From contig NZ_JAGGMQ010000001.1 of assembly GCF_017875465.1 (NCBI RefSeq), positions 2,294,001-2,358,000 of the forward strand: DNA of 64,000 bases. Reading direction: 5' to 3'. The DNA comes from Winslowiella toletana (GTDB lineage: Bacteria > Pseudomonadota > Gammaproteobacteria > Enterobacterales > Enterobacteriaceae). Shown here piece after piece: positions 20,644 through 35,897 of the stretch. Both the position numbers and the translations under genes were made by a program. The notes under the pieces were generated by a model. It was not told where the DNA came from and did not search any database. It was given only the letters and a program-made list of their open reading frames with translations. Each line of letters starts with the position of its first letter. The stretch's first letter is position 1.

Positions 20644-22713
20644 TCACTGCAACAGCGAAATATCCGCAACTTGCAGGAACAACTCACGCAGTTTCGTCAG
20701 CAGCGTCAGACGGTTAACCCGCACCGCCTGGTCATCAGCGTTAACCATCACCTTATCGAAGAAGTTGTCCACCGACTCGCGCAACTGCGCCAGCTCGATT
20801 AACGCATCCTGATAACGGCCTTCGGCAAAGAACGGCTGCAGTTTACTGCTAAGCGCGGTGACAAAGGTCGCCAGCTGAATCTCTTCGTTTTCCTTCAGCA
20901 GCGAGGCCTGTACGCTGTCATTCAGGGTTTCGGTCGATTTGGCGAGGATATTGGATACGCGTTTATTGGCCGCAGCCAGCGCTGCCGCTTCCGGCAAGCT
21001 ACGGAAGTGCGAAACCGCCTTCATACGGGCATCAAAGTCCGCCGGACGGGTTGGACGACGCGCCAGCACCGCCTGCAACGTATCAATGCTGTGACCCTCT
21101 TCCTGATACCAGCTGCGGAAGCGACCAAGCATAAAGTCGATAACCTCATCGACCACTTTAGCGTTGGTCAGCTTGCTGCCATACAGGCGCACCGCTTCTT
21201 CGGTCAGGGTTTGCAGATCGAGCGCCAGATTTTTCTCGACGATAATACGCAAGACGCCCAGCGCCGCACGACGCAGTGCAAACGGGTCTTTATCGCCTTT
21301 CGGATGCTGGCCAATGCCAAAAATACCGGCCAGCGTATCCATCTTATCGGCAATCGCCAGCGCACAAGCCACCGGGTTGGACGGCAGGTCATCACCGGCA
21401 TAGCGTGGCTGATACTGCTCGTTCAGCGCCACCGCCACATCTTCCGCTTCACCATCATGGCGCGCGTAGTGCATGCCCATCACACCCTGGGTGTCGGTAA
21501 ACTCAAACACCATATTGGTCATCAGGTCGCACTTCGACAGCAGGCCAGCACGGGTGGCATGATTCACATCAGCGCCGATCTGCGCCGCAATCCAGCCAGA
21601 CAGCGCCTGGATACGGTCGGTTTTGTCGCGCAGGGTACCCAGCTGTTTCTGGAACAGCACGGTTTCCAGACGTGGCAGATGCTCTTCGAGGCGTTTTTTA
21701 CGGTCCGAGTTAAAGAAGAACTCCGCATCGGCGAGGCGTGGACGCACCACTTTCTCATTACCGGAAATAATCTGCTGCGGATCTTTCGACTCAATATTAG
21801 TGACGAAAATAAAGTGCGGCAGCAGTTTGCCGTTATCGTCGTACACCGGGAAGTACTTCTGGTCGCCCTTCATGGTGTACACCAGCGCTTCTGCCGGCAC
21901 CGCGAGGAATTTCTCTTCGAAGGTCGCGGTCAGCACCACCGGCCACTCCACCAGCGAAGTCACTTCTTCCAGCAGACTTTCGCTCAGATCGGCTTTACCG
22001 CCAATCTTACGCGCTGCAGCTTCCGCATCGGCTTTGATCAGCGTTTTACGCGTTTCGTAGTCAGCGACCACTTTACCGCGCTCCAGCAGAATTTGCGGAT
22101 ACTGGTCAGCATTGTCGATAGTGAACTCTGGCTCGCCCATAAAGCGATGGCCACGAATAATGCGCGCAGAATCAACGCCGAGAATGGTGGCCGGGATCGA
22201 CTCATCGCCCAGCAGCAGGGTCACGGTATGCACCGGACGCACAAACTGCGTCTCTTTATCGCCCCAACGCATCAGCTTAGGGATCGGCAGTTTCGTCAGC
22301 GCAGTCGCCACCATCGCCGGCAGCAGCGTCTGCGCGCTTTCGCCTTTGCTCAGAGCGCGATACAGCAGCCATTCGCCTTTGTCGGTGCTCAGACGCTCAG
22401 CCTGATCAACGGTAATCCCGCAACCGCGTGCCCAGCCTTCGGCGGCTTTGGTCGCGACGCCACTGGCATCAAAGGCGGCGGCAATCGCCGGGCCACGTTT
22501 TTCAACTTCACGATCCGGCTGTGAGGCGCTCAGATTAGCGACTTTCAGCGCCAGACGACGCGGCGCGGCAAACCAGCTGACTTCACCGTGCGCCAGGTCG
22601 GCAGCATCCAGTTCAGCCGTAAAGTGGGCGGCAAACGATTCCGCCAGGCTACGCAGCGCCTTTGGTGGCAGCTCTTCGGTGCCGATCTCCACCAGAAATG
22701 TTTTTTCAGTCAT
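20644..22713 (-). CDS. glyS: Glycine--tRNA ligase beta subunit
   Basis: Beta subunit of the bacterial alpha2-beta2 glycyl-tRNA synthetase, involved in tRNA recognition. It has 689 residues, the same as E. coli GlyS. It starts [28 protein letters not shown] and contains the conserved [32 protein letters not shown] and HD-like [28 protein letters not shown] regions; the C-terminal anticodon-binding part is complete. It is translated from the same message as glyQ, nine bases downstream of it. Confidence 0.98.
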
Positions 22714-22722
22714 GGCGGCCTC

Positions 22723-23634
22723 TTATTTTTTTCTGTTCAACATCGGGAAGCCCAGCGCCTCACGCGACGCATAATAAGCTTCCGCCACGGCTTTGGTCAG
22801 GGTACGAATACGCAGAATATAGCGCTGACGCTCGGTCACCGAGATCGCCTTGCGCGCGTCCAGCAGGTTGAAAGTATGGCCCGCCTTCAGAATGCGTTCG
22901 TAAGCCGGCAGCGGCAGGGGTTTCTCCAGCGCCAGCAGGCTTTGCGCCTCTTTCTCGTACTGCTCGAAGCAGGTAAACAGGAAGTCGACATCCGCATATT
23001 CAAAGTTATAGGTGGATTGCTCCACTTCATTCTGATGGAACACATCACCGTAAGTGGTGGTGCCCAGCGGACCGTCGCTCCAGACCAGATCGTAAACGCT
23101 GTCCACGCCCTGGATATACATCGCCAGACGCTCCAGACCGTAGGTGATCTCACCGGTTACCGGCTTACACTCCAGTCCGCCAACCTGCTGGAAGTAGGTA
23201 AACTGCGTCACTTCCATGCCGTTCAGCCACACTTCCCAGCCGAGGCCCCAGGCACCCAGCGTCGGGTTCTCCCAGTTATCTTCGACAAAGCGAATATCGT
23301 GGATGGTGGGATCCATACCCAGCTCTTTCAGTGAACCCAGATACAGCTCCTGAATATTGTCCGGCGAAGGTTTGATGATCACCTGGAACTGGTAGTAGTG
23401 CTGTAAGCGGTTCGGGTTTTCGCCATAACGACCATCGGTAGGACGACGTGACGGCTGCACATAGGCAGCAGCGATTGGCTCCGGCCCTAAAGCACGCAGG
23501 CAAGTCATAGGATGTGAGGTGCCGGCGCCCACTTCCATGTCCAGTGGTTGAACAATGGTGCAGCCCTGGCGCGCCCAGTAATCCTGCAAGGTCAGGATCA
23601 GGCCCTGAAAGGTCTTAGTATCAAACTTTTGCAT
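22723..23634 (-). CDS. glyQ: Glycine--tRNA ligase alpha subunit
   Basis: Catalytic alpha subunit of glycyl-tRNA synthetase, charging tRNA-Gly with glycine. At 303 residues it matches E. coli GlyQ in length and almost throughout in sequence: [39 protein letters not shown], the class II motif 2 region [26 protein letters not shown], and [19 protein letters not shown]. It is first in the glyQS operon. The 225 bases to the divergent amidohydrolase gene must hold both promoters. Confidence 0.98.
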
Positions 23635-23859
23635 GATGAATTCGCACGCGATACGGTGGATGAAAAAAGTGTGCGCCAGTATACCCTTTGACCGGGTTGA
23701 TTACCAAAAGGGTAATAGTCAGCCGACACTTTCTTCTGCTTTGTCCTGCTGCGCAGTGAAATCAGTATTACACCGGATGCCCGGCGCGCTGAGCGAATGA
23801 TAGATCTCGCTCAAGGCTAACCAATACGGGTTATGCCAGCTGGCACAGGAGAAGAAGTG

Positions 23860-25236
23860 ATGAACACATTGATTGTAAACGGTTTAGTCGTTACTCCTGG
23901 CGGTGACATTGACGCCGGGTTACTGATTGAGCACGGTAAAATCGCCGCTATTCTGGCGCACGGTAGCCCGTTGCCGCAGGCTGATGAGATTATCGACGCC
24001 AGTGGACTGGTGGTGATGCCCGGCACCATTGATGTCCATACCCATTTCACCGCTGCCCATGATTTCCCGGAGCAGGAGCTGCGCGAAGGCACCCGGGGCG
24101 CCGCCGCCCATGGTGTCACCACCATTATCGAGATGCCGCACTCGCTGCCACCGGCTACTACCCTCGACAGTTTTATCGCCAAACGCGAGATACTGGCGCG
24201 CAGCTGCGTGGTGGATTACGCGCTCTGGGCGGGCCTCGACGGCAAAAACCTGCCACAGCTGGCGAAAATACAACAGGCAGGCGCCATCGCCTTTAAAGCG
24301 TTTTTGTGCAGCGATTCACCGGATGGCGCGGCCGGTGATGAAAAGGGGCTGCCAAGGTTAAATGATGACAATCTGCTGCGCGCCATGCGTGAGCTGGCCA
24401 GTTTTAATGGCCTGATCGGCGTGCATGCCGAGAACCATGACATTCTGACCGGCGCCGCCAGCGAACTGCGCGCCGCCCGGCGCAACCACAACCGTGCTTG
24501 CGCGCTGGCCAGTCCGGAGATTGCCGAGACCGAAGCCGTCGGCCGCGTACTACACTTCGCCAGACAGACCGGCGTGCGGACGCATATTGTCCATGTCAGT
24601 TCAGCGCAGGCGGTGCGGATGATTACGGCGGCAAAATCAGCCGTACGGGTCAGCTGCGAAACCTGTCCGCACTATCTGCTGCTCGACGAAGACGATCTGG
24701 TGCGCATCGGCGCCAATGCCCGCTGTAGCCCGCCGATCCGCCCGCGCCCGGTGGTCAACGCGTTGTGGCAGCTGGTGCACAGTGGTGAAATTGATCTGCT
24801 GGCCTCCGACCACTATCCCTGTACGCCAGAGCAAAAACAGCTGGGGCAAAATGGCATCTGGGATGCGGTCAAAGGGCTGACGGGGGTGGAAACCCTCGGG
24901 CCGCTATTTTTTAGTGAAGGCCATATCAGGCGCGCCCTGTCACTGCGCGAGGTGGCGCGAATGACCGCCAGCGGTCCGGCGCAAGTCTTTCATCTCTGGC
25001 CGCGCAAAGGGGCCATCGCTCTGGGGGCTGATGCCGATTTGGCGCTGTACGACCCGCATGAAATCTGGACGGTCAGCGGAGAAAAATTTCACGGGCTGGG
25101 TAAGTGGAGTGCTTTTGACGGCATGAAATGCCGCGGAAAAGTGGTGCGCACCCTGATCCGCGGCATTAGCGTATTTCGTGACGGCGCAATACAGGTTGCG
25201 CCGGGATTTGGTCAGTTCCTGACGCGCACCTTTTAA
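23860..25236 (+). CDS. Allantoinase/hydantoinase-family amidohydrolase, copy 1
   Basis: A 458-residue cyclic amidohydrolase that opens ureide or imide rings. All expected metal ligands are visible: HTHF (H-x-H), the carbamylated Lys in AFKAFLCS, His in GVHAENHD, His in THIVHVSSAQ, and Asp in LLASDHYPCTPEQK. The order and spacing follow allantoinase (AllB). ATG 23860 was chosen (GGAG eight bases upstream; MNTLIVNGLVV aligns with copy 2). It is nearly the same as the protein encoded at 31380-32756, with the same length. It precedes the main operon by 250 bases and is probably its own unit with shared control. Allantoin itself is only one possible substrate. Confidence 0.85.
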   Translation: MNTLIVNGLVVTPGGDIDAGLLIEHGKIAAILAHGSPLPQADEIIDASGLVVMPGTIDVHTHFTAAHDFPEQELREGTRGAAAHGVTTIIEMPHSLPPATTLDSFIAKREILARSCVVDYALWAGLDGKNLPQLAKIQQAGAIAFKAFLCSDSPDGAAGDEKGLPRLNDDNLLRAMRELASFNGLIGVHAENHDILTGAASELRAARRNHNRACALASPEIAETEAVGRVLHFARQTGVRTHIVHVSSAQAVRMITAAKSAVRVSCETCPHYLLLDEDDLVRIGANARCSPPIRPRPVVNALWQLVHSGEIDLLASDHYPCTPEQKQLGQNGIWDAVKGLTGVETLGPLFFSEGHIRRALSLREVARMTASGPAQVFHLWPRKGAIALGADADLALYDPHEIWTVSGEKFHGLGKWSAFDGMKCRGKVVRTLIRGISVFRDGAIQVAPGFGQFLTRTF

Positions 25237-25426
25237 GCGGTGAAGCGTTATCATTAGAAAATCGTATAGATATTGATCAGTCAGCCATTTACACCATCTG
25301 ACCCACCGGGGAATACCACTTATCCTTCTGAATTTATTAATTAAACTCTCAACCCCTGGCAGAGCCTGACCCGCTACTCTCTCCGCTCTCAGGCACAAAA
25401 CTGACCATCTGGTGAAAACGCGCTCG

Positions 25427-25455
25427 TTGACTTTCGTCTAATCGTATACGAATTT
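25427..25455 (+). promoter_or_regulatory. Candidate promoter with palindromic operator for the ureide-type operon
   Basis: A -35-like TTGACT (25427-25432) is followed by the perfect palindrome TCGTATACGA (25442-25451), overlapping the expected -10 position. Such short dyads are typical FadR/GntR operators, and a FadR-type regulator lies in the operon. A partial copy (TCGTATAGA) is at 25262-25270. The remainder of the 250-base gap shows nothing else. Confidence 0.4.
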
Positions 25456-25486
25456 ACGATCATCAACTGCTCAACGAGACGCCACC

Positions 25487-25879
25487 ATGAAACAGGCCAT
25501 TACCTACCCCGGAATGCACGCAGAAGACCGCCCGATGGGGCCAGCGCCGCTCTCATCGGCGATTCTGAGTGAGCCGATGCTGTTTATCTCCGGTCAGGTA
25601 GCCATCGATCCGTACAGCGGCGCAATTGTCGGCAACGATATTCAGGCGCAGACCCACCAGGTGCTGAAAAACGTCGGCGACCTGCTGGGCGAAGCCGGTA
25701 TGACCTTCGATAACGTGGTGCGCGTAACGATTTTCCTTACCGATCTTTCGCTGTTCGCTGAGCTGAATGCGGTATACGCCGACTATTTTGCTTTTCCGTA
25801 CCCGGCTCGCGCCACCGTCGGCATCCAGCTCAACCACCCGGATTTACTGGTTGAGATGGAAGTGACGGCGATGCGCTAA
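25487..25879 (+). CDS. RidA-family imine/enamine deaminase
   Basis: A 130-residue Rid (YjgF/YER057c) protein. The family hydrolyses reactive enamine/imine intermediates to ketones, or acts in ring-opening pathways. Seen here: FISGQVAIDPYSG, QTHQVLKNVGDLLGEAGMTFDNVVRVTIFLTDL, the substrate-binding Arg in FPYPARATVGI and the terminal VEMEVTAMR. The conserved Arg marks the active RidA-type subgroup rather than the inert ones. It is first in an operon with a dehydrogenase and an importer, so it probably deaminates a pathway intermediate rather than serving general PLP-enzyme damage control. Confidence 0.9.
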   Translation: MKQAITYPGMHAEDRPMGPAPLSSAILSEPMLFISGQVAIDPYSGAIVGNDIQAQTHQVLKNVGDLLGEAGMTFDNVVRVTIFLTDLSLFAELNAVYADYFAFPYPARATVGIQLNHPDLLVEMEVTAMR

Positions 25880-25895
25880 GCGGGAGAATCATCAG

Positions 25896-26867
25896 ATGCA
25901 TATTCATATCGAAAACGACGCCAGCGCGCCGCAGGCACTGCAACTGCCAGTGGAGCTGCTGCAACAGCGAATTGACGCCAATCCGCTGCTGCGCGGCAAA
26001 TTTACCCTGTCGGAAAACAGCGATGCCGAACGCGTAGCGGCGTTTTTACCTGCCGCAGAGATTCTGTGGGCCGGACGTAAGCTGCCGCTGTATCACTATC
26101 CGACGCCACAACTGAAGTGGGTGCAGGTGATGTCCGCAGGCGTGGAGAGCTGGCTGGAAAAATGGCCAGCGGCCATTCAGCTGGTGAATGCCTCCGGCGT
26201 CCACGGCGATAAAGGGGCCGAATTTATTCTGATGGCTGCGCTGATGTTCAATTACGGCATTCCGGGCTTTCTGCAGGACCAGGCCAGCCAGCAGTGGCGG
26301 CCGACCTTTGGCGGCTGTGCGCGCGGCAAAAAAGTGCTGCTGCTGGGCGTGGGCGGCATTGGCGCGGCGGCGGCGGCGATGCTGACGCGCCAGGGTTACG
26401 AAGTCTGTGGCGTGACGCGCAGCGGCTATAGCGAAGCCGAACTGGCGCGCTGCATCGCGATGGCGGATATCGATGCCGAACTGGCGGACACCGATGTGCT
26501 GGTCTCCACACTGCCGCTGACGGCGGAAACCGAGGGTCTGTTCAATGCCCGCCGTCTGGCGCAGCTGCCAGCGCGTGCGGGGGTGATTATCGTCGGGCGC
26601 GCCAGGGTGTTTGATTATCACGCGCTGCGCGAGATGTTAAGCCAGCAGCAGCTGGCGGGCGCGGTGCTGGATGTTTTCCCGCAGGAGCCACTGCCTGCCG
26701 GCGATCCGCTGTGGCACTGCCCGGGGCTGATTATCACGCCACATTGCAGCCTTGACGATCATGGCGCCTATCTCGAAGGCTGCCTGTCGCGCTTTATCCA
26801 GAATCTTGAACGGTATCAGGCCGGAGAGCCGCTAATAAACCGGGTTAACCCAGAAACAGGTTATTAA
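25896..26867 (+). CDS. D-2-hydroxyacid dehydrogenase (GhrA-like)
   Basis: A 323-residue NAD(P)-dependent reductase of 2-keto acids or oxidase of D-2-hydroxy acids. It has the Rossmann motif GVGGIGAAAA, catalytic Arg in IIVGRARVFD (the family normally has N-x-G/A-R-G, here slightly altered), Glu in DVFPQEPLP and His in ITPHCS. The N-terminal substrate domain starts MHIHIENDASAPQAL. It follows the RidA gene by 16 bases. It likely handles the keto or hydroxy acid made after ring opening and deamination; direction and substrate are inferred. Confidence 0.85.
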   Translation: MHIHIENDASAPQALQLPVELLQQRIDANPLLRGKFTLSENSDAERVAAFLPAAEILWAGRKLPLYHYPTPQLKWVQVMSAGVESWLEKWPAAIQLVNASGVHGDKGAEFILMAALMFNYGIPGFLQDQASQQWRPTFGGCARGKKVLLLGVGGIGAAAAAMLTRQGYEVCGVTRSGYSEAELARCIAMADIDAELADTDVLVSTLPLTAETEGLFNARRLAQLPARAGVIIVGRARVFDYHALREMLSQQQLAGAVLDVFPQEPLPAGDPLWHCPGLIITPHCSLDDHGAYLEGCLSRFIQNLERYQAGEPLINRVNPETGY

Positions 26868-26933
26868 GCCCTGTACCAACCCACAACAATCGCAGTTCAT
26901 CAATTAACTATTCACCTGCCCAGGGAAAAGATT

Positions 26934-27821
26934 ATGAAATTTGCACGCATCGCTCTGCTGGTATCCGGTCTGACCGGCTCCATGTTGTCTCTCTCCGCGC
27001 ACGCTGCCGACCCGGTAAAACCCACTGCCGCCGACTTCGCCGCGATGGCGCAGTGTAAAACCCTGCAAACCAAATATCCGTCGCTGGTCGGCAAAGATGT
27101 GGTGGTGGGTTTAGGCGGTTACACCAAAGGTTTTGAAGCACCATCCGCCGCCGATCCGACGGTGATTGAAGGACTGGATCCGTCACTGTTTGATCGCCTT
27201 GGCGGCTGTCTCGGCTTTAAACACACTTACCAGAACGGCTCATTTAACGTGCTGCTGACCTCGATCTCCAGTGGTCGCGCCGATATCGGCCCGATGCTGT
27301 ACGTCACCCCGGAACGTCTGAAACAGATTGCATTTGTTGCCTCGGTGCAGGTGCAGGACGGCTCGGTAATCGCCAAAGGCAACCCGAAGAAAATCAATAC
27401 CATTGACGATCTCTGCGGCAAGACCGTTGCCGCCGCGGCCGGCACTTACGAAGCCAGCAAACTGGTGCCGGAGCAGAGCGCCAGATGCGTAGCCGCCGGT
27501 AAGCCGGAAGTGAATATGCTGATGGTGCAGAACACCGATAACAGCATTCAGGCGATCAAAAGTGGTCGTGCCGATATCTATCTGACCGAAGCCGGTTCAG
27601 CGCGTGAAATCGCTAAAGCCGATCCCGCTTCTTACGCCACCGCCTTTACGGTCGATCTGCCCATTATGGTCGGCTTCCCGATTGCTAAAGATAACGCGGT
27701 GATGCGCAGTGCGGTGCTTGACGCGATGCTGGTGATTCAGCAGAGCGGCGCGCAGCAGAAACTGCTGGATTACTGGGGCCAGGGCGCCAGCGCACAGCGT
27801 ACTGCGACCGACAAAGGTTAA
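26934..27821 (+). CDS. Periplasmic solute-binding protein, family 3 (polar amino acid type)
   Basis: A 295-residue substrate-binding protein with a Sec signal peptide (about residues 1-25, ending LSAHA). Motifs of the family 3 fold are visible: DPSLFDRLGGCLGFKHTYQNGSFNVLLTSISSGRADIGP, the hinge region LCGKTVAAAAGTYEASKL, and IQAIKSGRADIYLTEAGSA. Family members bind amino acids, opines and similar polar solutes. It lies between the dehydrogenase gene and the fused permease/ATPase gene and is surely that transporter's binding protein. Confidence 0.88.
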   Translation: MKFARIALLVSGLTGSMLSLSAHAADPVKPTAADFAAMAQCKTLQTKYPSLVGKDVVVGLGGYTKGFEAPSAADPTVIEGLDPSLFDRLGGCLGFKHTYQNGSFNVLLTSISSGRADIGPMLYVTPERLKQIAFVASVQVQDGSVIAKGNPKKINTIDDLCGKTVAAAAGTYEASKLVPEQSARCVAAGKPEVNMLMVQNTDNSIQAIKSGRADIYLTEAGSAREIAKADPASYATAFTVDLPIMVGFPIAKDNAVMRSAVLDAMLVIQQSGAQQKLLDYWGQGASAQRTATDKG

Positions 27822-27855
27822 GTGTTAATAAGTCCGACATGCCGGAGAGGTTCGC

Positions 27856-29379
27856 GTGGATGATTTTCTGAAGTATTTAACCCTGCCCTATTTGTGGCAG
27901 GGTGCGGTAATCGCTGTGCAACTGCTTGTCGGCGCACTGGCTGGTGGGGTGATTATTGGTTTCTTTCTGGCGCTGGCCAGCACCTCACGCCATTTTATTA
28001 TTCGTTTTCCGGTGCAGGTGTATATCTACATTCTGCGCGGCACGCCGGTTCTGCTACAGCTGATCCTGCTGTACAACGTGCTGCCGCAGTTTGGCCTGCG
28101 CTTTAGTCCGTTTGTCAGCGCCTTACTGGCGCTGATGATCAACGAAACCGCATTCTGCGCCGAGATTATTCGCGGCGGCATTATGGCCACCGATCGCAAT
28201 CAGCGCGTCGCCGCCCAGGCCTTTGGTTACTCGCGTACCAAAGAGATGATTTATGTGGTGATCCCGCAGGCGCTGCGCGCCATTCTGCCAACCATGGGCA
28301 ATGAGACCGTTGGCCTGCTGAAGTCCACCTCGCTGGCTTCGGTAGTCGGCGTTAACGAACTGACGATGCGCGGTCAGACCATTGTTTCGCAAAACTTTAT
28401 GTTTATTCCGGTGCTGGTGGCGTCGGGCGGCATCTATATGATCCTCTCGTCGCTGCTGGCCGCCGGTCAGTGGTGGATGGAGCGCCATTACAATCTGGAA
28501 GATCGCGCCCGCCGCGCCCGCGCCCGGCAGGACAAACTGCCGCCAGCAGCGGAGGTGGAAGCGCTGATGCTGCCGAAACAGCGCTGGGATACCAGCAAAG
28601 CGGCGCCGGTACTGGAGATCGATAACCTCTGTGTCGAATATGGCAATAAACCGGTGCTGAAAGATCTGTCGCTGCATATTCGTCGTGGTGAAGTGGTGGT
28701 GCTGCTGGGCCGCTCCGGTTCCGGCAAAAGCACCCTGCTGAAATCGATTCTCGCCCTGACGCCGCGTTCCGGCGGACGCATCGCCACTGAAGGCCATGTA
28801 ATGGGTTACAACGATCAGGGGAAACCGCTGCCGGACCGCCATCTGCCCGCCAACCGCGCGCGTTCCGGCATTGGCATTGTTTTCCAGCACTTCGCCCTGT
28901 TTGACCATCTGACCGCGCTGGAAAATGCGATGAGCATTCCGCTGCGCGTGCAGGGTGAACAGCCGGAGATTGCCCGCGCCAAAGCGATGCGCGCACTGCG
29001 GGTGGTAGGCCTTGGCGACTTTGCGGCGGCGCTGCCGCACGAGTTATCCGGTGGCCAGCAGCAGCGTGTCGGCATCGCCCGCGCGCTGGCTGCGGAACCG
29101 CGCATTCTGCTGTTTGATGAGCCAACCTCGGCGCTGGACCCGGAGCTGGTGCGTGAGGTCAACCAGACCATTCGCTCGCTGGCGCAAACCGGTATCACCA
29201 TGATTATCAGCACCCATGATATTGCTTTCGCCGCCAGCGTGGCGGACCGCGTGGTATTCCTGCAAGGCGGCCAGCTGATTGAGCAAGGGCCACCGGCAAT
29301 TCTGCAACAGCCGCAGACTGAAGCTTTCGCCCAGTTCCTGCAACACGAACAACAACATCAGGAGATCGCACATGCATAA
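27856..29379 (+). CDS. Fused ABC permease/ATPase, polar amino acid type
   Basis: A 507-residue single chain. Residues 1 to about 225 form a HisM/GlnP-type permease (five hydrophobic segments; EAA-like loop NQRVAAQAFGYSRTKEMIYVVIPQALRAILPTMGNE). Residues from about 250 onward form a GlnQ-type ATPase with Walker A GRSGSGKST, signature LSGGQQQRVGIARAL, Walker B ILLFDEPTSALD and H-loop STHD. In most relatives these are two genes; the fusion occurs in some importers but is uncommon. It starts with GTG at 27856, with GGAGAGG upstream. No second permease is present, so the channel is presumably a homodimer. Confidence 0.9.
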   Translation: MDDFLKYLTLPYLWQGAVIAVQLLVGALAGGVIIGFFLALASTSRHFIIRFPVQVYIYILRGTPVLLQLILLYNVLPQFGLRFSPFVSALLALMINETAFCAEIIRGGIMATDRNQRVAAQAFGYSRTKEMIYVVIPQALRAILPTMGNETVGLLKSTSLASVVGVNELTMRGQTIVSQNFMFIPVLVASGGIYMILSSLLAAGQWWMERHYNLEDRARRARARQDKLPPAAEVEALMLPKQRWDTSKAAPVLEIDNLCVEYGNKPVLKDLSLHIRRGEVVVLLGRSGSGKSTLLKSILALTPRSGGRIATEGHVMGYNDQGKPLPDRHLPANRARSGIGIVFQHFALFDHLTALENAMSIPLRVQGEQPEIARAKAMRALRVVGLGDFAAALPHELSGGQQQRVGIARALAAEPRILLFDEPTSALDPELVREVNQTIRSLAQTGITMIISTHDIAFAASVADRVVFLQGGQLIEQGPPAILQQPQTEAFAQFLQHEQQHQEIAHA

Positions 29380-30433
29380 CTATGCCGGCATGCTGCCGTT
29401 TCAACTGGAAACCCGCCAGCGGCTGGGCGATGCCCTCTACCGCTATATGGTCGGGCAACCGGCGGACGCCCAGCTGGCGGCGGCGGACGCCAACAGTCAG
29501 GATTTACAGCGCTATCGTCTGCTGCCGCGCGTGATGCGCGCCACCAAGGGTATCGATACCCGGGTGATGCTCGGCGGACAACGCTGGGCGGCGCCGCTTG
29601 GCGTCGGCGCGTTTGCCGGTGATGTGATTTTTCATCCGGAAGGGCTGCTGCCGATTGCCCGCGCCTGTAAACGTCTGCAACTGCCGCTGGCCATCTCCGA
29701 AGAGACGGTGACACCGCTGGCGGAGATTTGCGATGCGTATCAGGGCTGCTGGCTGCAACTGCGGGCGGCGGGCGATTTGCCACGTATTGAACGCCTGATT
29801 CGCCATGCGGCTGACTGCCAGGCGGCAGGGATTATTCTGACGGTGCTGGCGCCGGTGCATCCGGTGGCGGGCTTACAGCCTGGCGGCTATTCAATCGGCG
29901 AGGCGCTGCAACAACAGGGACTGCGCACCATTGGCGCCAGCGCGCCGGGCGTCGAGACGCTGCCCGCTTTTCCTGGCTGGGGCTGGAATGAGATTCGCCA
30001 TATCAGCGCCTTTGCCGCGCAGTTAAAGATGCCGCTGATGCTGAAAGGCATCCTGCACCCGGAAGATGCCCGCCAGGTGCCGGAAAGTGGCGTCGACGCC
30101 ATTATTGCCTCCAATATCGGTCTGCGGCAGAGCGCACGCTGGGCAACGCCTGCCCAACAGATGCCGCAGCTGCGTCAGCACTACCCGGGCGATATTGTGA
30201 TGGATGGCGGTATCCGCAGCGGTACCGACGTGGTAGTGGCCGCCTGTCTTGGCGCAACCCTGTCGCTGACGGTGCGTCCGGTGATCAGCGCGCTGGTGGC
30301 CGGTGGTGAAGAGGCAGTATTTAATCTGCTGGCGGGCTGGGTCAATGAAATCACCGCCATCAGTCACTGGTGTGGCGTCAGCGCCATCAGTGAACTGAAT
30401 CCCTCTTTCCTTGCCGCGGAGCCGCTATCATGA
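29372..30433 (+). CDS. FMN-dependent alpha-hydroxyacid oxidase relative lacking the catalytic His
   Basis: A 353-residue TIM-barrel protein of the glycolate/lactate oxidase family. The family N-terminal region (RVMRATKGIDTRVMLGGQRWAAPLGVGAFAGDVIFHPEG), the Lys of MPLMLKGI and the FMN-phosphate motif MDGGIRSGTDVV are present. The active-site signature, normally S-N-H-G-x-R-Q, reads SNIGLRQ: the catalytic base His is Ile249 (codon 30116-30118), while Arg252 is kept. The usual LTVDTP is LTVLAP. It is therefore either a different FMN enzyme or a non-oxidase. ATG 29372 overlaps the transporter gene by eight bases, with CAGGAGA upstream. Confidence 0.8.
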   Translation: MHNYAGMLPFQLETRQRLGDALYRYMVGQPADAQLAAADANSQDLQRYRLLPRVMRATKGIDTRVMLGGQRWAAPLGVGAFAGDVIFHPEGLLPIARACKRLQLPLAISEETVTPLAEICDAYQGCWLQLRAAGDLPRIERLIRHAADCQAAGIILTVLAPVHPVAGLQPGGYSIGEALQQQGLRTIGASAPGVETLPAFPGWGWNEIRHISAFAAQLKMPLMLKGILHPEDARQVPESGVDAIIASNIGLRQSARWATPAQQMPQLRQHYPGDIVMDGGIRSGTDVVVAACLGATLSLTVRPVISALVAGGEEAVFNLLAGWVNEITAISHWCGVSAISELNPSFLAAEPLS

Positions 30434-31377
30434 CCAGCCGTTTAATTCTCAACCAGGGCGACCGCAGCGAATCGCGCATCTACTACTGCGCGCTATATCT
30501 GGCGGAAAGCCTTGGCCTGTTTGCGAAATATGACGTGGACATCCAGTTCACCACCGCTGAGTCCGGCGGCCACACTATCCAGGGCGGCCAGGTACCGGCG
30601 GTCATTACCGGAGAAGCCGACCTGACTATCGGTGGGCCAATGGTGATGATGAAGAATTACCAGCAGCAGGGGCCGCAAATGATGTGTTTTTGTGCCGCCG
30701 TAGCCGCTAACCCGTGGTTTTTAGCCGCCGCCAACAGCGAACCCGGCTTTGTCCCTGATGCGCTGCGCGGCAAGCGGGTGATTGATGTCGGTAATGTCGG
30801 CACCGCCACATTAAGTTTTAACTGGCTGTTAAATCAGCATCAGCTTAGCGATCAGGTCACTCTGATCCCCGGCAGTGGCGATCAGCAGGCGGATTTCGCC
30901 GCCGTCGCCAGTGGTGATTACGACTATGCGCTGCACTCAATGCACGCGCTGGCGCCGGCTGTCGCCAGCGGCAAACTGCATTGCGTCGCCAGCCTTGCGC
31001 CGTTATGCGGTGATATGCCGTGGAGCGCGTATATCGCCCGCCGCGATGTGCTGCAACAGAAACGCCCGGCGTTTATCGCGTTTACCCGCGCGATCGCCGA
31101 AGCCCAGCAGTGGCTGCTGAGCCACGACGCCGCCGCGCTGGCGCAGCAGGTGCAACCCTGGTATGCGGATTATCCCGCCGCGGCGCTGGTCGCCGGTCTG
31201 GATGCGTATCTGCACAGCGGTGTGTTTGCCAGCGGACCCGACATTGCCCGCCAGGATTTTGAGCATTTCGCCACCTTGCTGACCGAAACCGGCTGGCTCA
31301 GTGCGCAGATCCCGGTTCCTTATGCCGCGCTGGTGGATATGTCACTGGTCGGCGCCATCTGGCAGCAGGAGAAATAA
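30430..31377 (+). CDS. NMT1/THI5-like binding-fold protein without signal peptide
   Basis: A 315-residue protein with the periplasmic-binding fold of the NMT1/THI5/SsuA group (YLAESLGLFAKYDVDIQFTTAESGG, AVITGEADLTIGGP, LRGKRVIDVGNVGTATLSFNWLL, DYDYALHSMHALAP). Transport-related members carry a signal peptide, but here the chain starts MTSRLILNQGDRSESRIYYC, is hydrophilic, and no upstream in-frame start adds one. It should stay in the cytoplasm. Like yeast THI5, it might be an enzyme or an intracellular sensor/carrier. Its ATG overlaps the previous stop (ATGA), and the next gene follows after two bases, so it is embedded in the operon. Confidence 0.72.
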   Translation: MTSRLILNQGDRSESRIYYCALYLAESLGLFAKYDVDIQFTTAESGGHTIQGGQVPAVITGEADLTIGGPMVMMKNYQQQGPQMMCFCAAVAANPWFLAAANSEPGFVPDALRGKRVIDVGNVGTATLSFNWLLNQHQLSDQVTLIPGSGDQQADFAAVASGDYDYALHSMHALAPAVASGKLHCVASLAPLCGDMPWSAYIARRDVLQQKRPAFIAFTRAIAEAQQWLLSHDAAALAQQVQPWYADYPAAALVAGLDAYLHSGVFASGPDIARQDFEHFATLLTETGWLSAQIPVPYAALVDMSLVGAIWQQEK

Positions 31378-31379
31378 GC

Positions 31380-32756
31380 ATGAGAACATTGATCGTCAAC
31401 GGATTAGTGGTCACGCCCGACGGAGAGATCGCCGCCGGGTTGCTGATTGAGCAGGGAAAAATTGCCGGTATTCTGGCGCACGGCGCCCAGCTGCCGGCAG
31501 TGGATGAGGTGATCGACGCCAGCGGGCTGGTGGTGATGCCCGGCGCGATTGATGTCCATACCCACTTTACCGGCTCCCATGATTTCCCCGAACAGGAGCT
31601 GCGCGAAGGCACGCAGGGCGCCGCCGCCCATGGCGTAACCACGATTGTGGAGATGCCCCACTCCTTGCCGCCCGCCACCACCACTGGCAACTTTATCGCC
31701 AAGCGCGAAATGCTGGCGCGCAGCTGTACAACTGACTTTGCCATGTGGGCCGGTCTGGATGGCAACAATCTGGCGCAGCTGGCGGAGATGCACGAGGCGG
31801 GCGCGATTGCCTTTAAGGCGTTTCTCTGTAGCGGTGCGCCCGATGGCGGCGCGACCGATGAAAAAGGGCTGCCGCGTCTGAATGATGATGCCCTGCTGCG
31901 CGCGATGCGCGAGCTGGCGACCTTTGACGGGCTGATCGGCGTACATGCCGAGAATCATGACATTCTGCTTGGCGCTGGCGGTGAACTGCGCGCCGCCGGA
32001 CGCAAAGATACCCGCGCCCATGCGCTGGCCGGTCCGGAGATTGCTGAAATCGAAGCGGTGGGGCGCGTGCTGCAAATCGCCCGCGAGACTGGCGCACGCG
32101 CGCATATTGTTCATGTCAGCTCCGCGCAAGCGGCGCAGCTGATTGCGGCAGCGCGACCGGCGGTGCGGGTCACCTTTGAAACCTGCCCGCACTATCTGAT
32201 GCTCGATGAAGACGATCTGGTGCGCATCGGACCAAATGCCCGTTGCGGGCCGCCAATCCGGCCGCGTGCGGTGGTCGATGCGCTGTGGCAGGTGCTGGAG
32301 AGCGGCGAAATTGACATACTGGCCTCCGACCACTGCCCCTATACGCCAGAACAGAAACTGGCCGGACTGGAAAGTATCTGGGATGCCGGAATGGGACTGA
32401 CCGGGGTAGAAACCCTCGGCCCGATGTTCTTTAGTGAAGGTCACGTAAAACGCGGACTGCCACTAAAAGAGCTGGCGCGCATGACCGCCAGCGGTCCGGC
32501 GCAGGCTTTTCATCTCTGGCCGCAGAAAGGCGCCATTGCGCTGGGCGCCGATGCGGATCTGGCCTTTTATGATCCTGAAGCCAGCTGGACGGTAACGGGT
32601 GAAAATTTCCACGGTCTGGGTAAGTGGAGCGCCTTTGAAGGGATGCACTGCCAGGGCAAGGTGGTCCGCACCCTGATTCGCGGCATTACCGTGTTCCGTG
32701 ACGGCGAGATGCAGGTCGCCCCGGGATTTGGTCAGTTCCTGACGCGTTCCCATTAA
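31380..32756 (+). CDS. Allantoinase/hydantoinase-family amidohydrolase, copy 2
   Basis: A 458-residue cyclic amidohydrolase. Metal ligands: HTHF, carbamylated Lys in AFKAFLCS, GVHAENHD, HIVHVSSAQ and ASDHCPYTPEQK. It aligns without gaps with the protein at 23860-25236; I judge roughly three quarters of the residues identical by eye. Differences cluster at a few places that could set specificity: HFTGSHD against HFTAAHD, DHCPYT against DHYPCT, FETCPHYLM against SCETCPHYLL. It starts two bases after the NMT1-like gene and belongs to the operon. Together the pair suggests a duplicated ring-opening step for two related substrates or two successive rings. Confidence 0.86.
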   Translation: MRTLIVNGLVVTPDGEIAAGLLIEQGKIAGILAHGAQLPAVDEVIDASGLVVMPGAIDVHTHFTGSHDFPEQELREGTQGAAAHGVTTIVEMPHSLPPATTTGNFIAKREMLARSCTTDFAMWAGLDGNNLAQLAEMHEAGAIAFKAFLCSGAPDGGATDEKGLPRLNDDALLRAMRELATFDGLIGVHAENHDILLGAGGELRAAGRKDTRAHALAGPEIAEIEAVGRVLQIARETGARAHIVHVSSAQAAQLIAAARPAVRVTFETCPHYLMLDEDDLVRIGPNARCGPPIRPRAVVDALWQVLESGEIDILASDHCPYTPEQKLAGLESIWDAGMGLTGVETLGPMFFSEGHVKRGLPLKELARMTASGPAQAFHLWPQKGAIALGADADLAFYDPEASWTVTGENFHGLGKWSAFEGMHCQGKVVRTLIRGITVFRDGEMQVAPGFGQFLTRSH

Positions 32757-32782
32757 TTCAGGCCATTATGCAGGACATCACT

Positions 32783-33556
32783 ATGGCAGAAAAATCCGCG
32801 CCGCCCGCGCGTAAAACCGGGAGACAGACCAGCGCACCGCTGATGCAGGAAGATAATCTGGATGCCAGCTGGGCCGCCGCCAGGCCGCGTACGCTGGTCG
32901 ATCATGCGGTCGATGCGATTTTATCCGCCGCCTCGCGCGGTTTGATTTTGCCAGGCGATCGCGTCTCTGAACCGGATTTAGTCACGCGCCTTGGTATGAG
33001 CCGTGTACCGATCCGCGAGGCGCTGCGCATTCTGGAAAGTCAGGGGATAGTTTCCAGCGAACCTTATAAAGGCATCCGCCTGATGGAGATCTCCCATCAG
33101 CGGCTGGAGCAGATTATCGATGTGCGTATTCCGCTGGAAACCCTCGCCTGTCAGCGGGCGATTGAGGCCGGACGCAATGGCCCGCGCGAACTCAAACTGC
33201 TGAATCAGAGCGTCGACGAGCTGGTGCTGATGCAGCAACGCGAAGATGTCTACGGCTTCGCCTCCGCAGATACCGATTTTCACCGCGTGTTGTGCAGCCT
33301 GGCGCTGAATCCGGTACTCAGCAATCTGTGGGAATCCATCGCCCGCCAGCTGACGGTGATCTTTGGTCTTTCCACCATCGGCAAGTCAATGGAGTCGATT
33401 ATTGAAGAGCATCAGCGCCTGGTGGAAGTGTTTGCCGAAGGCGATATCGACAAGATGGCACAGGAAATTGAACAACATATCCGCGTGCAGGCGCTGGATG
33501 TCGATTACGAAAAAATTATCGCGGAACGCCGCAAATTGCTGGCCGCAGCGGAATAG
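32783..33556 (+). CDS. GntR-family regulator, FadR subgroup
   Basis: A 257-residue regulator. It has an N-terminal winged helix (AILSAASRGLILPGDRVSEPDLVTRLGMSRVPIREALRILESQGIV) and a C-terminal all-helical FCD effector domain with the metal/ligand His residues in DTDFHRVLC and EEHQRLVEVF and in EIEQHIRV. Start 32783 was preferred to ATG 32768 because AGGA lies upstream at good spacing. FadR-type regulators sense carboxylic acids such as 2-keto or hydroxy acids, fitting the surrounding pathway. It probably acts on the palindrome TCGTATACGA upstream of the operon. Confidence 0.88.
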   Translation: MAEKSAPPARKTGRQTSAPLMQEDNLDASWAAARPRTLVDHAVDAILSAASRGLILPGDRVSEPDLVTRLGMSRVPIREALRILESQGIVSSEPYKGIRLMEISHQRLEQIIDVRIPLETLACQRAIEAGRNGPRELKLLNQSVDELVLMQQREDVYGFASADTDFHRVLCSLALNPVLSNLWESIARQLTVIFGLSTIGKSMESIIEEHQRLVEVFAEGDIDKMAQEIEQHIRVQALDVDYEKIIAERRKLLAAAE

Positions 33557-33601
33557 CCGCCGCATTAGCCTGACGACTTTTGCCACCAGGAAACAGAATT
33601 G

Positions 33602-34717
33602 ATGAAAATTACCAATGTTGAAGCTTTCTATCTGCGGTTGCCGAATATTGAAAAACGCACCGACAGTTCGCAGGATGCGTTGCTAATCAAAATTTCTACC
33701 GATGCCGGTTTTGTTGGCTGGGGCGAAGTGGATGGCAGTCCGTATGTCACCAAAGCAATTATCGATGCCCCTTACTCCCATACCATGGTAACCGGCCTGA
33801 AATCGCTGCTGATTGGCGAAAATCCGCTGGATACCAAAAGGTTATGGAGCAAGATGCACCGTGCGACTATCTATTACGGTCGTAATGGCGCGGTGATTCA
33901 GGCGATGGCCGGGATTGATATTGCGCTGTGGGACATTAAAGGCAAAGCGCTCGATCGGCCGATTGTCGATCTGCTCGGCGGCGCGATGCGCGACAAAATG
34001 CGCGTCTACTCCTCCAATATGTTCCAGTACAGCATTGATGACACCGTGGCGCGCGCCCGTCATGCGGTGGATACCGGCCATACTGGCGTTAAATTTGGCT
34101 GGGAACCCTTTGGTGAAGATGAAGCCACCGATATGCGCTATCTCGACGCCATTCGCCACGCAATTGGCGACGATATCGACCTGATGCTCGATGTCGGCCA
34201 TGCCTGGGATGCGAAAACCACCATCCGCCGTGCCGAACGTTTCGATGCTTTCAATCTTTTCTGGATTGAAGAGCCGCTGCATCCGGATAATTTCGCCGGT
34301 TACGGGCAGGTATCGCAAGCCTGCAACCAGCATATCGCCGCCGGTGAGCAGGAGTGCTCGGTGGTCGGCTTCGAGCGCTTAATCGATGAAGGCGGCATTG
34401 ATATTGTGCAGATCGACCTGACGCGCACCGGCTTTACCCAGGCGATTGAGATTGCCAGCTATGCCCACAGTCGCGGGCGTAAAGTCTGTAACCATAACTT
34501 CACCACCGATATTAATACTGCCGCTTCACTGCATTTCCTCTGCGCCATTGAGAATGCGCTGGTGATGGAGTATTGCGTTGAACCGGGTGAAATCAGCCGC
34601 TCGCTGGCGAAAAATCCGGTGCGTATCGCCGACGGATTTGCCTGGCTGCCGGATGAGCCAGGTCTCGGTGTGGAGCCGCGGATGGATATTATTGAGAAGT
34701 TTTTAGTAAAAGAGTAA
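33602..34717 (+). CDS. Enolase-superfamily enzyme, mandelate racemase/muconate lactonizing type
   Basis: A 371-residue enzyme that abstracts the alpha-proton of a carboxylate, acting as a dehydratase, racemase or cycloisomerase. Three metal ligands are visible in order: Asp in LMLDVGHAWD, Glu in FWIEEPLHP and Glu in AAGEQE. The base candidates are Lys in TGVKFGWEPFG and His in KVCNHNFTTDI, the His pointing to the mandelate racemase/acid-sugar dehydratase subgroup. ATG 33602 or TTG 33599 may be the start (AGGA upstream). It is last in the operon, before a hairpin at 34737-34761. Family members often act on aldonic or hydroxy acids. Confidence 0.85.
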   Translation: MKITNVEAFYLRLPNIEKRTDSSQDALLIKISTDAGFVGWGEVDGSPYVTKAIIDAPYSHTMVTGLKSLLIGENPLDTKRLWSKMHRATIYYGRNGAVIQAMAGIDIALWDIKGKALDRPIVDLLGGAMRDKMRVYSSNMFQYSIDDTVARARHAVDTGHTGVKFGWEPFGEDEATDMRYLDAIRHAIGDDIDLMLDVGHAWDAKTTIRRAERFDAFNLFWIEEPLHPDNFAGYGQVSQACNQHIAAGEQECSVVGFERLIDEGGIDIVQIDLTRTGFTQAIEIASYAHSRGRKVCNHNFTTDINTAASLHFLCAIENALVMEYCVEPGEISRSLAKNPVRIADGFAWLPDEPGLGVEPRMDIIEKFLVKE

Positions 34718-34736
34718 TTCTGTTGTTTCTTTCCAG

Positions 34737-34761
34737 CCCCCTCCCGCTTTACGGGAGGGGG
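34737..34761. terminator. Perfect 10-bp GC-rich hairpin at the operon end
   Basis: CCCCCTCCCG (34737-34746) pairs with 34752-34761 around the loop CTTTA, 20 bases after the stop codon of the enolase-superfamily gene. No T tract follows, so it may be a stabiliser or a Rho-assisted terminator. Confidence 0.5.
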
Positions 34762-34901
34762 CCAGCGCAGCGCCCATTTTGCCCCCCCCTTCATAGAATC
34801 TTGTTCAGCTCAGTCCGATTTTTAACAACAAGTATTGTTGAAGCCTCCTGTTCCATCTACCCTCATGTCAGCATTGAAGCGACGGCAAATAAGAGGAACA
34901 G

Positions 34902-35897
34902 ATGACGCAAAAGATTGGCTGGATAGATAATTTACGTGCCGTGGCCTGTTTAATGGTGATTATGATCCATACCACCACCTGGTACATCACCAATAGCCCG
35001 CAAGTGGCCGAACACCACTGGGATATCGCCAATCTGCTGAATTCTGCCTCACGCGTTTGTGTGCCGATCTTTTTTATGATTTCAGGTTATCTGTTCTTTG
35101 GTGAACGAAGCGCGCAGAATCGCCATTTCCTGCGTATCGTGCTCTGCCTGCTGTTCTACAGCGCGGTGGCGCTGGCGTATATCACCCTGCTGACCCCCAT
35201 CAGCGAAATGATATCCATCAAACACTTACTGCAAAAACCGGTGTTCTACCACCTGTGGTTTTTCTTCGCAATTATGGTGATTTACCTGCTGTCACCGCTG
35301 ATTCAGGTGAAACAGGTGCGCGCGCGCTATGTTGCGGTGCTGGTTCTGGTGCTGGCGGTGGTCGCCAACCCGAATACCGTCGATCAGTCGGTGGGGCCAT
35401 TTCACTGGCTGCCGGTCAATCTGTATATCGGCGGCGACACCTTTTACTACGTGCTGTATGCCTTGCTGGGTCGCGCTATTGGCATGATGGCGACGGAGAA
35501 GCCGGGTATCAGCTGGCTGGCGGGAGTGTTATTTGCCGCCTGCGTGGTGGGAATTTCAATTGGCACCAAAAAAGAGCTGCATATTAATGGCGCCTTCTCC
35601 GATACCTGGTATCTCTACTGCGGCCCGCTGGTATTTATCGCTGCCGTCAGCCTGCTGGTGCTGTTTAAAAACTGCCTGAACCAGCGCGTATTGCCCGGTT
35701 TAGCGCTGATTTCGCGCAACTCATTGCCGATTTATGGTTTCCATGCGCTGTTTATTCACTATATGCGCACCCATCATCTCGACCATACCGGCCAGCCGCT
35801 ACTGGATATTCCGCTGATTTTTGCCGTAACCCTTGCGGGCAGCCTGCTGCTGGCGCTGGGATTGCGCCGTATCGATAAATATCATCTGGTGAGTTAG
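34902..35897 (+). CDS. wecH: O-acetyltransferase WecH
   Basis: A 331-residue integral membrane acyltransferase (Acyl_transf_3), the same length as E. coli WecH (YiaH), which O-acetylates enterobacterial common antigen. It starts [28 protein letters not shown], holding the family's catalytic-His region (MIHTTTW), followed by [30 protein letters not shown] and [16 protein letters not shown], with about ten hydrophobic segments. In E. coli the gene sits next to glyQ; here the ureide-type cluster separates them. An AGAGGA ribosome site precedes the ATG. Confidence 0.95.

Follow-up and report, generated by a model that had tools for sequence, protein, structure and literature searches.

A conserved nine-gene module of Winslowiella toletana and other Proteobacteria, probably for the import and degradation of a carboxylated N-heterocycle

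Introduction

Between glyQ and a wecH-like gene of Winslowiella toletana lies a run of genes for amidohydrolases, an importer, a regulator and several enzymes of broad families, and the locus raises the question of whether these genes form one pathway and, if so, for what kind of compound. Our main reading, to which we give a probability of roughly 0.6, is that they form a single substrate-induced import and degradation module, controlled by an FCD-type regulator, for a small carboxylated N-heterocycle with a cyclic amide, imide or ureide bond.

Results

Gene content of the locus

The window is the whole 64,000-nucleotide stretch of W. toletana DNA that was analysed. Every gene listed in an earlier note on this DNA was recovered in its place and with its family (Table 1), and the overlaps described there were borne out, at 8 nt between the ABC and FMN genes and 4 nt between the FMN and NMT genes. 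Ten plus-strand genes, their start codons rechecked, lie between glyQ and the wecH-like gene, an interval that is itself a variable spot. The proposed insertion between glyQ and wecH holds on the glyQ/glyS side, while the name wecH fits the other flank only loosely, this being an Acyl_transf_3 protein with no NCBIfam model match at 1e-10. Tight packing, likewise, applies to the nine genes from ridA onwards and not to the first amidohydrolase, AH1: because a gap of 250 bp (25237-25486), which holds the operators, parts AH1 from the remaining genes, AH1 stands outside the tight operon. Two search queries had ends off by one codon (AH1 23863-25236, short; FMN enzyme 29369-30433, long), which leaves the conclusions unaffected.

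Table 1. Features of the locus, with positions in the window
Feature	Position	Strand	Remarks
AH1, second amidohydrolase	23860..25236	+	lineage-specific AH2 paralogue, 78% identical
Second operator-like site, AATCGTATAGAT	25260..25271	.	imperfect in the window; ~223 bp before ridA
Main operator palindrome, ATCGTATACGAA	25441..25452	.	~43 bp before ridA
RidA-type imine/enamine hydrolase	25487..25879	+	TIGR00004 above cut-off
D-2-hydroxyacid dehydrogenase, GhrA-like	25896..26867	+	Arg/Glu/His triad retained
Periplasmic solute-binding protein, family 3 (SBP_bac_3)	26934..27821	+	N-terminal signal-like stretch, by eye
Fused amino-acid-type ABC permease-ATPase	27856..29379	+	family match
FMN_dh-family enzyme, 353 aa	29372..30433	+	catalytic His/Tyr/Asp positions are Ile/Arg/Leu
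NMT1/THI5-fold protein, without signal peptide	30430..31377	+	probably a soluble enzyme
AH2, the module's cyclic amidohydrolase	31380..32756	+	allantoinase/L-hydantoinase neighbourhood; metal ligands retained
GntR-type regulator, FCD ligand domain	32768..33556	+	candidate operator reader
Enolase-superfamily (MR/MLE) enzyme	33599 (TTG) or 33602 (ATG)..34717	+	likely start ATG 33602

Conservation and distribution of the module

The earlier note had proposed that these genes belong together, a proposal at odds with a set that is never conserved elsewhere. A gene-neighbourhood comparison, with loci located by a profile of the NMT1-like protein, found the set conserved together and under one common operator: 17 of the 21 named loci hold the complete nine genes (RidA, dehydrogenase, solute-binding protein, permease-ATPase, FMN enzyme, NMT1-like protein, AH2, FCD regulator and enolase-superfamily enzyme), and in the remaining four the locus is cut short, interrupted or minus one gene. 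Counted among the 17 are two loci with genes matched as two pieces, perhaps through frameshifts (dehydrogenase and ABC genes in L006, ABC gene in L017); the NMT1 gene of L021 was matched in the same way. Hosts range from Pantoea to Rhizobium, Microvirga, Aureimonas and Mangrovicoccus, with Rhizobium halophytocola DSM 21600 (L016) among those that carry the set, and three more genomes of the window's genus (L029-L031) also have the nine genes. Ectorhizobium (L018) and Mangrovicoccus (L020) retain the set rearranged into sub-operons. The locus of Serratia M24T3 (L014) is missing the dehydrogenase gene, so that this step may be optional.

Compared only among themselves and without naming, the flanking ORFs of the loci include no common gene beside the module outside Pantoea and the window's genus. 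One flanking ORF family, c22, occurs both in L004 and at the distal end of L015.

Because the set is conserved in differing orders and places across two classes, the association of the nine genes is, judged from these genome comparisons, far above chance. We conclude that the nine genes (25487-34717) are a conserved module, of which AH1 is not a member.

The module is rare and patchy: of 394 genomes sampled from the order, 2 gave an NMT1 match, and 4 of 37 genomes of the window's genus carry the module itself. Such a distribution would suit the detoxification or scavenging of a toxic heterocyclic amino-acid analogue from plants or microbes, in which the genes protect the cell rather than feed it; RidA, which quenches reactive enamines, would suit it as well. 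A dedicated importer, however, is expected for catabolism and not for protection, and we hold this explanation to be very unlikely.

Several further matches were set aside. The NMT1 match in genome G748 (3e-18) was rejected as a module, its 6.6-kb contig being matched by no query protein at 1e-8, and a Paenibacillus NMT1 match was rejected for its unrelated gene context. No module copy turned up on plasmids when the FMN, NMT1, enolase, AH2 and ABC proteins served as queries; the best AH2 match there, in Rhizobium sp. SL42, covers residues 218-453 only (60%), adjoins sugar-transport and ribokinase genes, and is apparently a stray fragment. For the NMT1 match in genome G238, two in-frame TGA codons were reported.

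The amidohydrolases and the known ureide pathways

The best solved relative of AH2 is the L-hydantoinase 1gkr (293 bits). Like allantoinase and L-hydantoinase, AH2 keeps the HxH motif, a lysine, two histidines and an aspartate, the metal ligands of the family, in 7 of the 7 rows shown. Unlike allantoinase, hydantoinase and ErtD proper, it stays below all their curated cut-offs, by little only in the case of the AllB model TIGR03178, where AH2 scores 357.1 and AH1 356.9 against 357.85, a marginal miss of under one bit. The AllB-type models PRK06189 (361-362 against 631) and PRK08044 (276-282 against 688) were missed widely by both amidohydrolases, as was the D-hydantoinase model (292-294 against 393); AH2 reached 333 of 650 and 305 of 600 bits with the ErtD models (ergothioneine/hydantoin-5-propionate), and RidA 67.9 of 169.1 bits with the RutC equivalog. 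Among the ten genes there are no allantoate or ureidoglycolate enzymes and no N-carbamoylase, ureidase or aldolase. Assignments to the allantoin, hydantoin, Rut and ergothioneine pathways were rejected since the curated cut-offs were missed, in line with the earlier claim that the locus fits none of the first three.

The near miss at AllB and the L-hydantoinase relationship of AH2 argue for one of the known ureide pathways, those for allantoin, hydantoin, dihydropyrimidine or hydantoin-propionate, in a version that has diverged and whose later steps are encoded elsewhere in the genome. We consider this unlikely given the wide misses with the other models, and no pathway of this kind is known to employ FMN_dh, NMT1, D-2-hydroxyacid dehydrogenase and enolase-superfamily proteins together. 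As for the module as we read it, assignment of its substrate to the cyclic ureides or imides rests mainly on the allantoinase/L-hydantoinase neighbourhood of AH2, with no linked carbamoylase, and is tentative.

AH1 presents a different picture. In the closest relative (G741, locus L057) it occurs alone, without the module, and a second amidohydrolase was found neither in three other module loci of the genus nor in any of the 18 named loci in which the ridA side is present (L010, L019 and L021 not being among these). Its dN/dS is 0.10, and conserved residues are changed relative to AH2; both AH1 copies read CSPP where AH2 reads CGPP. The start was set at 23860 rather than at the in-frame upstream ATG 23833, for which the G741 copy offers no equivalent. 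In the amidohydrolase tree one row (L042) repeats the window's AH1 and another (L053) repeats the outgroup, mislabelled AH1; these two repeats inflate the label-change counts, and a long-branch warning applies to the alphaproteobacterial rows. By these comparisons AH1 is a lineage-specific copy of AH2 that lies outside the module. The earlier idea of two amidohydrolases in one pathway is therefore not supported: because AH1 is a lineage-specific extra and not a conserved step, the two enzymes do not stand for separate reactions of a single conserved pathway.

An FMN enzyme with an altered active site

The FMN enzyme matches PF01070 at 194.4 bits (cut-off 24.9) and, like lactate oxidase, 4-hydroxymandelate oxidase and LldD, retains the family's Lys and Arg (120 of the 120 best proteins listed) and the N-terminal Tyr (118, with two gaps). 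Unlike the 2-hydroxyacid oxidases, it has replaced the His of the SNHG motif, the catalytic histidine of this FMN-dependent family, together with a Tyr and an Asp. Among the same 120 best proteins listed, the His position is Ile, Val or Leu in all, the window's own (Ile) included, the Tyr has become Arg in 119 with one gap, and the Asp is Leu, Met or Phe in all. The LldD-like protein of the window's own genome retains SNHGGRQ. Because the catalytic histidine of the family is gone, oxidation of a hydroxy acid is not to be assumed, and given this loss the enzyme could be non-redox or reductive; the source annotation as alpha-hydroxy acid oxidase or 4-hydroxymandelate oxidase is unsupported here. 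If our reading of the site is right, the subfamily formed by these 120 best-listed proteins has an active site incompatible with the textbook 2-hydroxyacid mechanism.

In flavin amine oxidases, no base in the active site is required for oxidising a C-N bond to an imine, provided that the amine is neutral. The pre-mycofactocin synthase MftD matches the FMN enzyme through its NCBIfam model, but the score of 91 bits stays far below the cut-off of 471, and its gene context differs from that of the module. According to PMC7491314, MftD, an LldD homologue, carries out the oxidative deamination of a 3-aminopyrrolidinone. It thus provides a precedent, an LldD homologue whose substrate is an amine beside a lactam.

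The NMT1-fold protein

Transport binding proteins account for many of the NMT1 protein's best fold matches, and source annotation names it an ABC transporter substrate-binding protein, a name unsupported here. Judged by eye, none of 32 aligned relatives has a signal peptide. The marks of a NitT/TauT binding protein, an export signal and a cognate permease, were not found; the sole transporter of the module is the amino-acid-type pair, with no second permease. The lack of a signal peptide and a set of invariant residues of its own, including His169 and His172, distinguish the protein from binding proteins, Thi5, DszB, MqnA/MqnD and 4,5-dihydroxyphthalate decarboxylase, and it is probably a soluble enzyme. 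A DszB-like desulfinase role was considered and dropped because the nearby cysteine is not conserved in the alignment. Searches of open-licence PMC found no literature on soluble enzymes with the NMT1 fold.

Other enzymes and the importer

RidA scores 116.3 with TIGR00004 (cut-off 106.25) and has the conserved Arg of the P-x-R-x-T stretch in 7 of 7 rows shown. The dehydrogenase (PF02826, 130.8 against 25.1) has its triad in 6 of 6 rows shown. In the binding protein, the Arg of a VTxxR stretch, typical of carboxylate binding, is invariant (16/16), and there is a weak resemblance to a deoxyfructosyl-amino-acid binding protein (34 bits). An acetamidase cluster of Neorhizobium NCHU2750 resembles the module in having a binding protein, a distantly related fused ABC protein (44% identity) and an L-PSP (RidA-superfamily) gene; it differs in its acetamidase and AraC-type regulator, and no AH2, FCD, FMN, NMT1 or enolase gene is annotated in it.

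In most loci, no other module gene is conserved as strongly as that of the enolase-superfamily enzyme. The protein carries PF13378 (MR_MLE_C, 196 bits) and PF02746 (MR_MLE_N, 63 bits), and the metal-ligand positions Asp/Glu/Glu are conserved in the seven rows shown. Its closest solved sequence relatives, 3sjn and 2hzg, are structure entries with generic mandelate racemase/muconate lactonizing names, and 2hzg shares with it the VKFGW and NHxFT stretches. The source annotation as L-rhamnonate dehydratase or epimerase-like enolase is unsupported here. Relatives in Psychrobacter and Pseudomonas (36-38%) have a BCCT transporter and another enolase-family gene as neighbours and gave no substrate clue.

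This enzyme also matches gluconate/galactonate and talarate/galactarate dehydratase models, which, with the deoxyfructosyl-amino-acid resemblance of the binding protein and the plant-associated life of several host genera, would point to an opine- or sugar-acid-type pathway. The enzyme would then be an acid-sugar dehydratase, and AH2 would cleave the lactam of an amino-sugar or keto-acid conjugate. However, the dehydratase cut-offs were missed (gluconate/galactonate 187 against 750, talarate/galactarate 185 against 500, galactonate 182 against 311) and the conserved set holds no aldolase, kinase or semialdehyde dehydrogenase, which leaves such a pathway improbable.

Predicted operator and its regulator

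A TCGTATACGA-like palindrome stands upstream of ridA in 23 of 23 upstream regions tested, a count that omits L001, L010, L019, L021 and L023-L028 (L010, L019 and L021 gave no ridA match) and includes L033, whose contig, of equal length (276345), is very probably that of L013. Across L002-L022 and L029-L031, the operator octamer occurs only before ridA, the binding-protein gene (L017) or the enolase gene (L016, L022). The main palindrome of the window contains the genome's only exact ATCGTATACGA, and the second site, imperfect in the window, reads AATCGTATACGAT in the Pantoea loci. Genome-wide matches with at most one mismatch are not enriched (13, to which the promoter site contributes once per strand, against 38 for a reversed control pattern), and the motif within the window alone is not significant, as 18 of 100 shuffles reach an equal number of matches. 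The co-occurrence of gene and site makes the FCD protein the candidate reader of this predicted operator; it would bind the palindrome and release it on binding the substrate or a product.

Discussion

Taken mechanistically, the binding protein and the fused ABC protein would import the compound and AH2 would open its ring. The FMN enzyme would oxidise a C-N bond to an imine, RidA would convert the imine into a 2-keto acid and ammonia or urea, and the D-2-hydroxyacid dehydrogenase would interconvert keto acid and hydroxy acid. The enolase-superfamily enzyme would act on a carboxylate, eliminating water or a nitrogen group as the beta leaving group and yielding a 2-keto acid or an enamine for central metabolism, and the NMT1-fold protein may act as a soluble lyase or isomerase alongside AH2. 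The order of these steps is rather doubtful. Somewhat better placed, though still tentative, is the suggestion of an undescribed pathway for N-heterocyclic acids not known as a bacterial nutrient, in which the base-less flavoenzyme would be a C-N (amine or ureido) oxidase, a dedicated RidA would take the imine, the NMT1 protein would be a new lyase and AH1 a freshly specialised copy for a second substrate.

Literature searches in open-licence PMC, whose terms included no gene name for the module, found no description of it, and the main text of a comparative genomics study of the Rid family (PMC4433059) does not mention hydantoin, allantoin, amidohydrolase, mandelate, hydroxyacid or FMN. The operator offers a direct route to the inducer by means of a reporter.

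The host names indicate a plant- or soil-associated lifestyle. If our reading is right, the locus would equip plant- and soil-associated bacteria for a nutrient that has gone unrecognised, as a full, portable set of genes that carries its own operator.

Gene content and conservation of the module

The earlier note had described ten clustered genes between glyQ and wecH as a utilisation pathway for ureides or cyclic imides. The cluster is present as described, with glyQ and glyS before it and an Acyl_transf_3 gene (that note's wecH, here the wecH-like gene) after it, in a host genome of 5.3 Mb on two contigs. The genes from the binding protein through the regulator overlap or are almost contiguous. 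As a single set, the ten genes held up in part: nine of them, from ridA to the enolase-superfamily gene, form a real module, and AH1, the upstream amidohydrolase, lies outside it.

Coordinates of the features discussed, in the window unless a compared locus (L-number) is given
Feature	Coordinates	Strand
glyQ to wecH-like interval	23634–34902	
Ten-gene set	23860–34717	+
Upstream amidohydrolase (AH1)	23860–25236	+
Nine-gene module	25487–34717	+
RidA		+
GhrA-like D-2-hydroxyacid dehydrogenase		+
Family-3 binding protein		+
Fused amino-acid-type permease-ATPase		+
FMN_dh protein (FMN protein)		+
NMT1-like protein		+
Module amidohydrolase (AH2)	31380–32756	+
GntR/FCD regulator		+
Enolase-superfamily protein		+
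DUF3289 (YPO3983 family) gene, then DUF943 gene, just past the wecH-like gene	36002–37289	
DNA matched in genome G741, besides the AH1/AH2 cross-match	22701–25387; 34793–36000	
AH1 of G741	L057:1285–2661	
Enolase-gene fragment of G762	L060:2989–3273	
NMT1 gene and truncated amidohydrolase of Mangrovicoccus ximenensis	L019:9960–11200	
Psychrobacter and Pseudomonas plasmid genes	L050:6666–10646; L051:7379–11260	
Neorhizobium plasmid cluster	L052:8012–14674	
Rhizobium sp. SL42 plasmid AH2 relative	L068:9028–9726	

A profile built from 32 relatives of the NMT1-like protein retrieved 21 loci in named genomes. All nine genes occur together in 17 of these (L002–L009, L011–L013, L015–L018, L020 and L022, counting as complete L006 and L017, where the match to one or two genes is split in two), so the possibility raised in the same note, that the set is never conserved together, does not hold. 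The dehydrogenase is missing from the Serratia sp. M24T3 locus (L014), contig ends truncate L010 and L021, and in Mangrovicoccus ximenensis (L019) the NMT1 gene is followed by an amidohydrolase that ends prematurely and then by unrelated sequence, possibly an insertion or an assembly break. Three more genomes of the genus (L029–L031) carry all nine genes.

Within the window's genus and at most Pantoea loci, the module lies next to glyQ, to the wecH-like gene or to both of them. The copies of Pantoea latae, Serratia and the alphaproteobacteria occupy other sites and have no neighbour in common; Ectorhizobium (L018) and Mangrovicoccus (L020) have the genes rearranged into sub-operons. The enolase-superfamily gene is the best conserved in most loci (75–87% to the window copy, L002–L022). 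Divergence is faster in the NMT1 gene (40–65%) and in the FMN gene (46–66%, not counting the 75% of an end fragment in L021).

Few genomes carry the module. Of 394 genomes sampled from the order, 2 gave an NMT1 match, and the same pair were the 2 matches among 398 sampled from the phylum; the enolase gene gave the same outcome. In the genus, 4 of 37 genomes have the module, one unrelated weak match having been discarded. Genome G238, with a Pantoea-type locus, belongs to the same family as the window's genome and to a different genus. In the AH2 tree, the copies from L010 and L013, recorded as Enterobacter cancerogenus and E. ludwigii, nest within the Pantoea copies, a position suggesting that these records may be misnamed.

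On Psychrobacter and Pseudomonas plasmids, two enolase-superfamily genes adjoin a BCCT transporter, and one of each pair is 36–38% identical to the module enzyme. The Neorhizobium plasmid cluster, possibly a related amide pathway, comprises a binding protein, a fused ABC protein, an acetamidase, an AraC-type regulator and an L-PSP-family gene. On the SL42 plasmid, the C-terminal half of an AH2 relative (60% over residues 218–453) adjoins sugar-transport and ribokinase genes and is apparently a stray fragment.

A variable insertion spot and a solitary amidohydrolase

Across the genus, the stretch between glyQ and the wecH-like gene varies in its cargo. Both genes are present in 34 genomes, and in 20 they lie 163–272 bp apart (between match ends); gaps in the other 14, the four module carriers among them, run from 333 bp to 32 kb. 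Among the cargo, named by eye, G762 and G748 have a sugar-kinase/ADP-ribosylglycohydrolase-like set, G771 has a TonB-receptor-like gene and G737 has a chemoreceptor-like gene. G762 also holds, between the wecH-like gene and glyQ and in module orientation, an enolase-gene fragment (residues 246–340), the relic of a lost module.

AH1 shares 78% identity with AH2 and is sister to the window's AH2 in the tree (fork 100/98). The 18 named loci holding the ridA side and the three same-genus loci yielded no second amidohydrolase. Of the genus members, G741 resembles the window most at glyQ and the wecH-like gene. It has an intact AH1, whereas the nine module genes are gone and its genome gives no NMT1 match at 1e-15; AH1 is thus a ring hydrolase on its own there, its pathway absent. 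Between the two genomes AH1 is under purifying selection (dN/dS 0.10, NG86).

An alignment of 24 AH2 proteins has 140 invariant columns, and nine of these are altered in both AH1 copies. Eight changes are identical (G207R, D210H, G218S, G290S, C319Y, Y321C, G337V and M338K) and in the ninth H214 becomes Cys or Tyr; one more is specific to the window copy and three to that of G741. When single AH2 rows were left out, six close rows showed 0 such changes each, L021 showed 1 and L015 showed 4. The metal-ligand motifs are retained in the alignment. Because the later changes flank, by homology, the metal-binding Asp and a substrate loop, the AH1 substrate has likely changed.

A candidate operator upstream of ridA

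The octamer GTATACGA or its complement lies upstream of ridA in 23 of 23 regions, mostly about 43 bp from the start, although these are not 23 independent events, several being close Pantoea relatives and L033 probably repeating L013. Pantoea and genus loci have an additional full or near copy near −200. Across L002–L022 and L029–L031, octamers occur solely before ridA, the binding-protein gene (L017) or the enolase gene (L016, L022); L010, L019 and L021 have none, and none precedes AH1. Exact ATCGTATACGA occurs once in the genome, at the module's ridA promoter. Allowing up to one mismatch gives 13 genome-wide hits (the promoter site counted on both strands) versus 38 for the reversed pattern, that is, no enrichment, and within the window alone the motif is not significant (18 of 100 shuffles). 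The case for this putative operator rests on conservation, and we infer that the FCD protein may be its reader.

Proposed chemistry

For the FMN protein we compared the best 120 of 491 proteins with E up to 1e-10, the window's own included, at positions placed by an alignment to lactate oxidase, where they have the catalytic and active-site roles named here. Among these 120, the catalytic His position is Ile, Val or Leu in all, the active-site Tyr position is Arg in 119 (one gap) and the Asp position is Leu, Met or Phe in all; Lys and Arg are retained in all and the N-terminal Tyr in 118 (two gaps). The genome's own LldD-like protein, in contrast, retains SNHGGRQ. Given these replacements and retentions, the subfamily has lost the hydroxy-acid base and kept its contacts to flavin and carboxylate. 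No such base is required to oxidise a neutral amine. For this reason, and because a dedicated RidA adjoins and MftD offers a precedent, C–N oxidation is our preferred reading of what the FMN protein would carry out. MftD, a homologue of LldD, is reported to deaminate an aminolactam (PMC7491314).

The NMT1-like protein has a confident predicted model (pLDDT 94.4), whose fold matches both transport proteins and soluble enzymes (Thi5, DszB, MqnA/MqnD and 4,5-dihydroxyphthalate decarboxylase). Across its 32 aligned relatives many polar residues, His169 and His172 among them, are invariant, and by eye none of these proteins has a signal peptide; the module has no second permease. A role as a soluble enzyme fits best. 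Since the NMT1 and amidohydrolase genes stay adjacent even in the reordered loci L018 and L020, their products may catalyse linked steps.

Literature searches in an incomplete library found no published account of this gene set. The pathway would combine, in one order or another, ring opening, C–N oxidation, imine hydrolysis, keto/hydroxy exchange and beta-elimination, and the ureide or cyclic-imide class proposed in the earlier note is plausible. Because carbamoylase, aldolase and kinase genes are all absent from the conserved set, the product of the AH2, FMN, RidA, dehydrogenase, enolase-superfamily and NMT1 proteins probably enters central metabolism directly.
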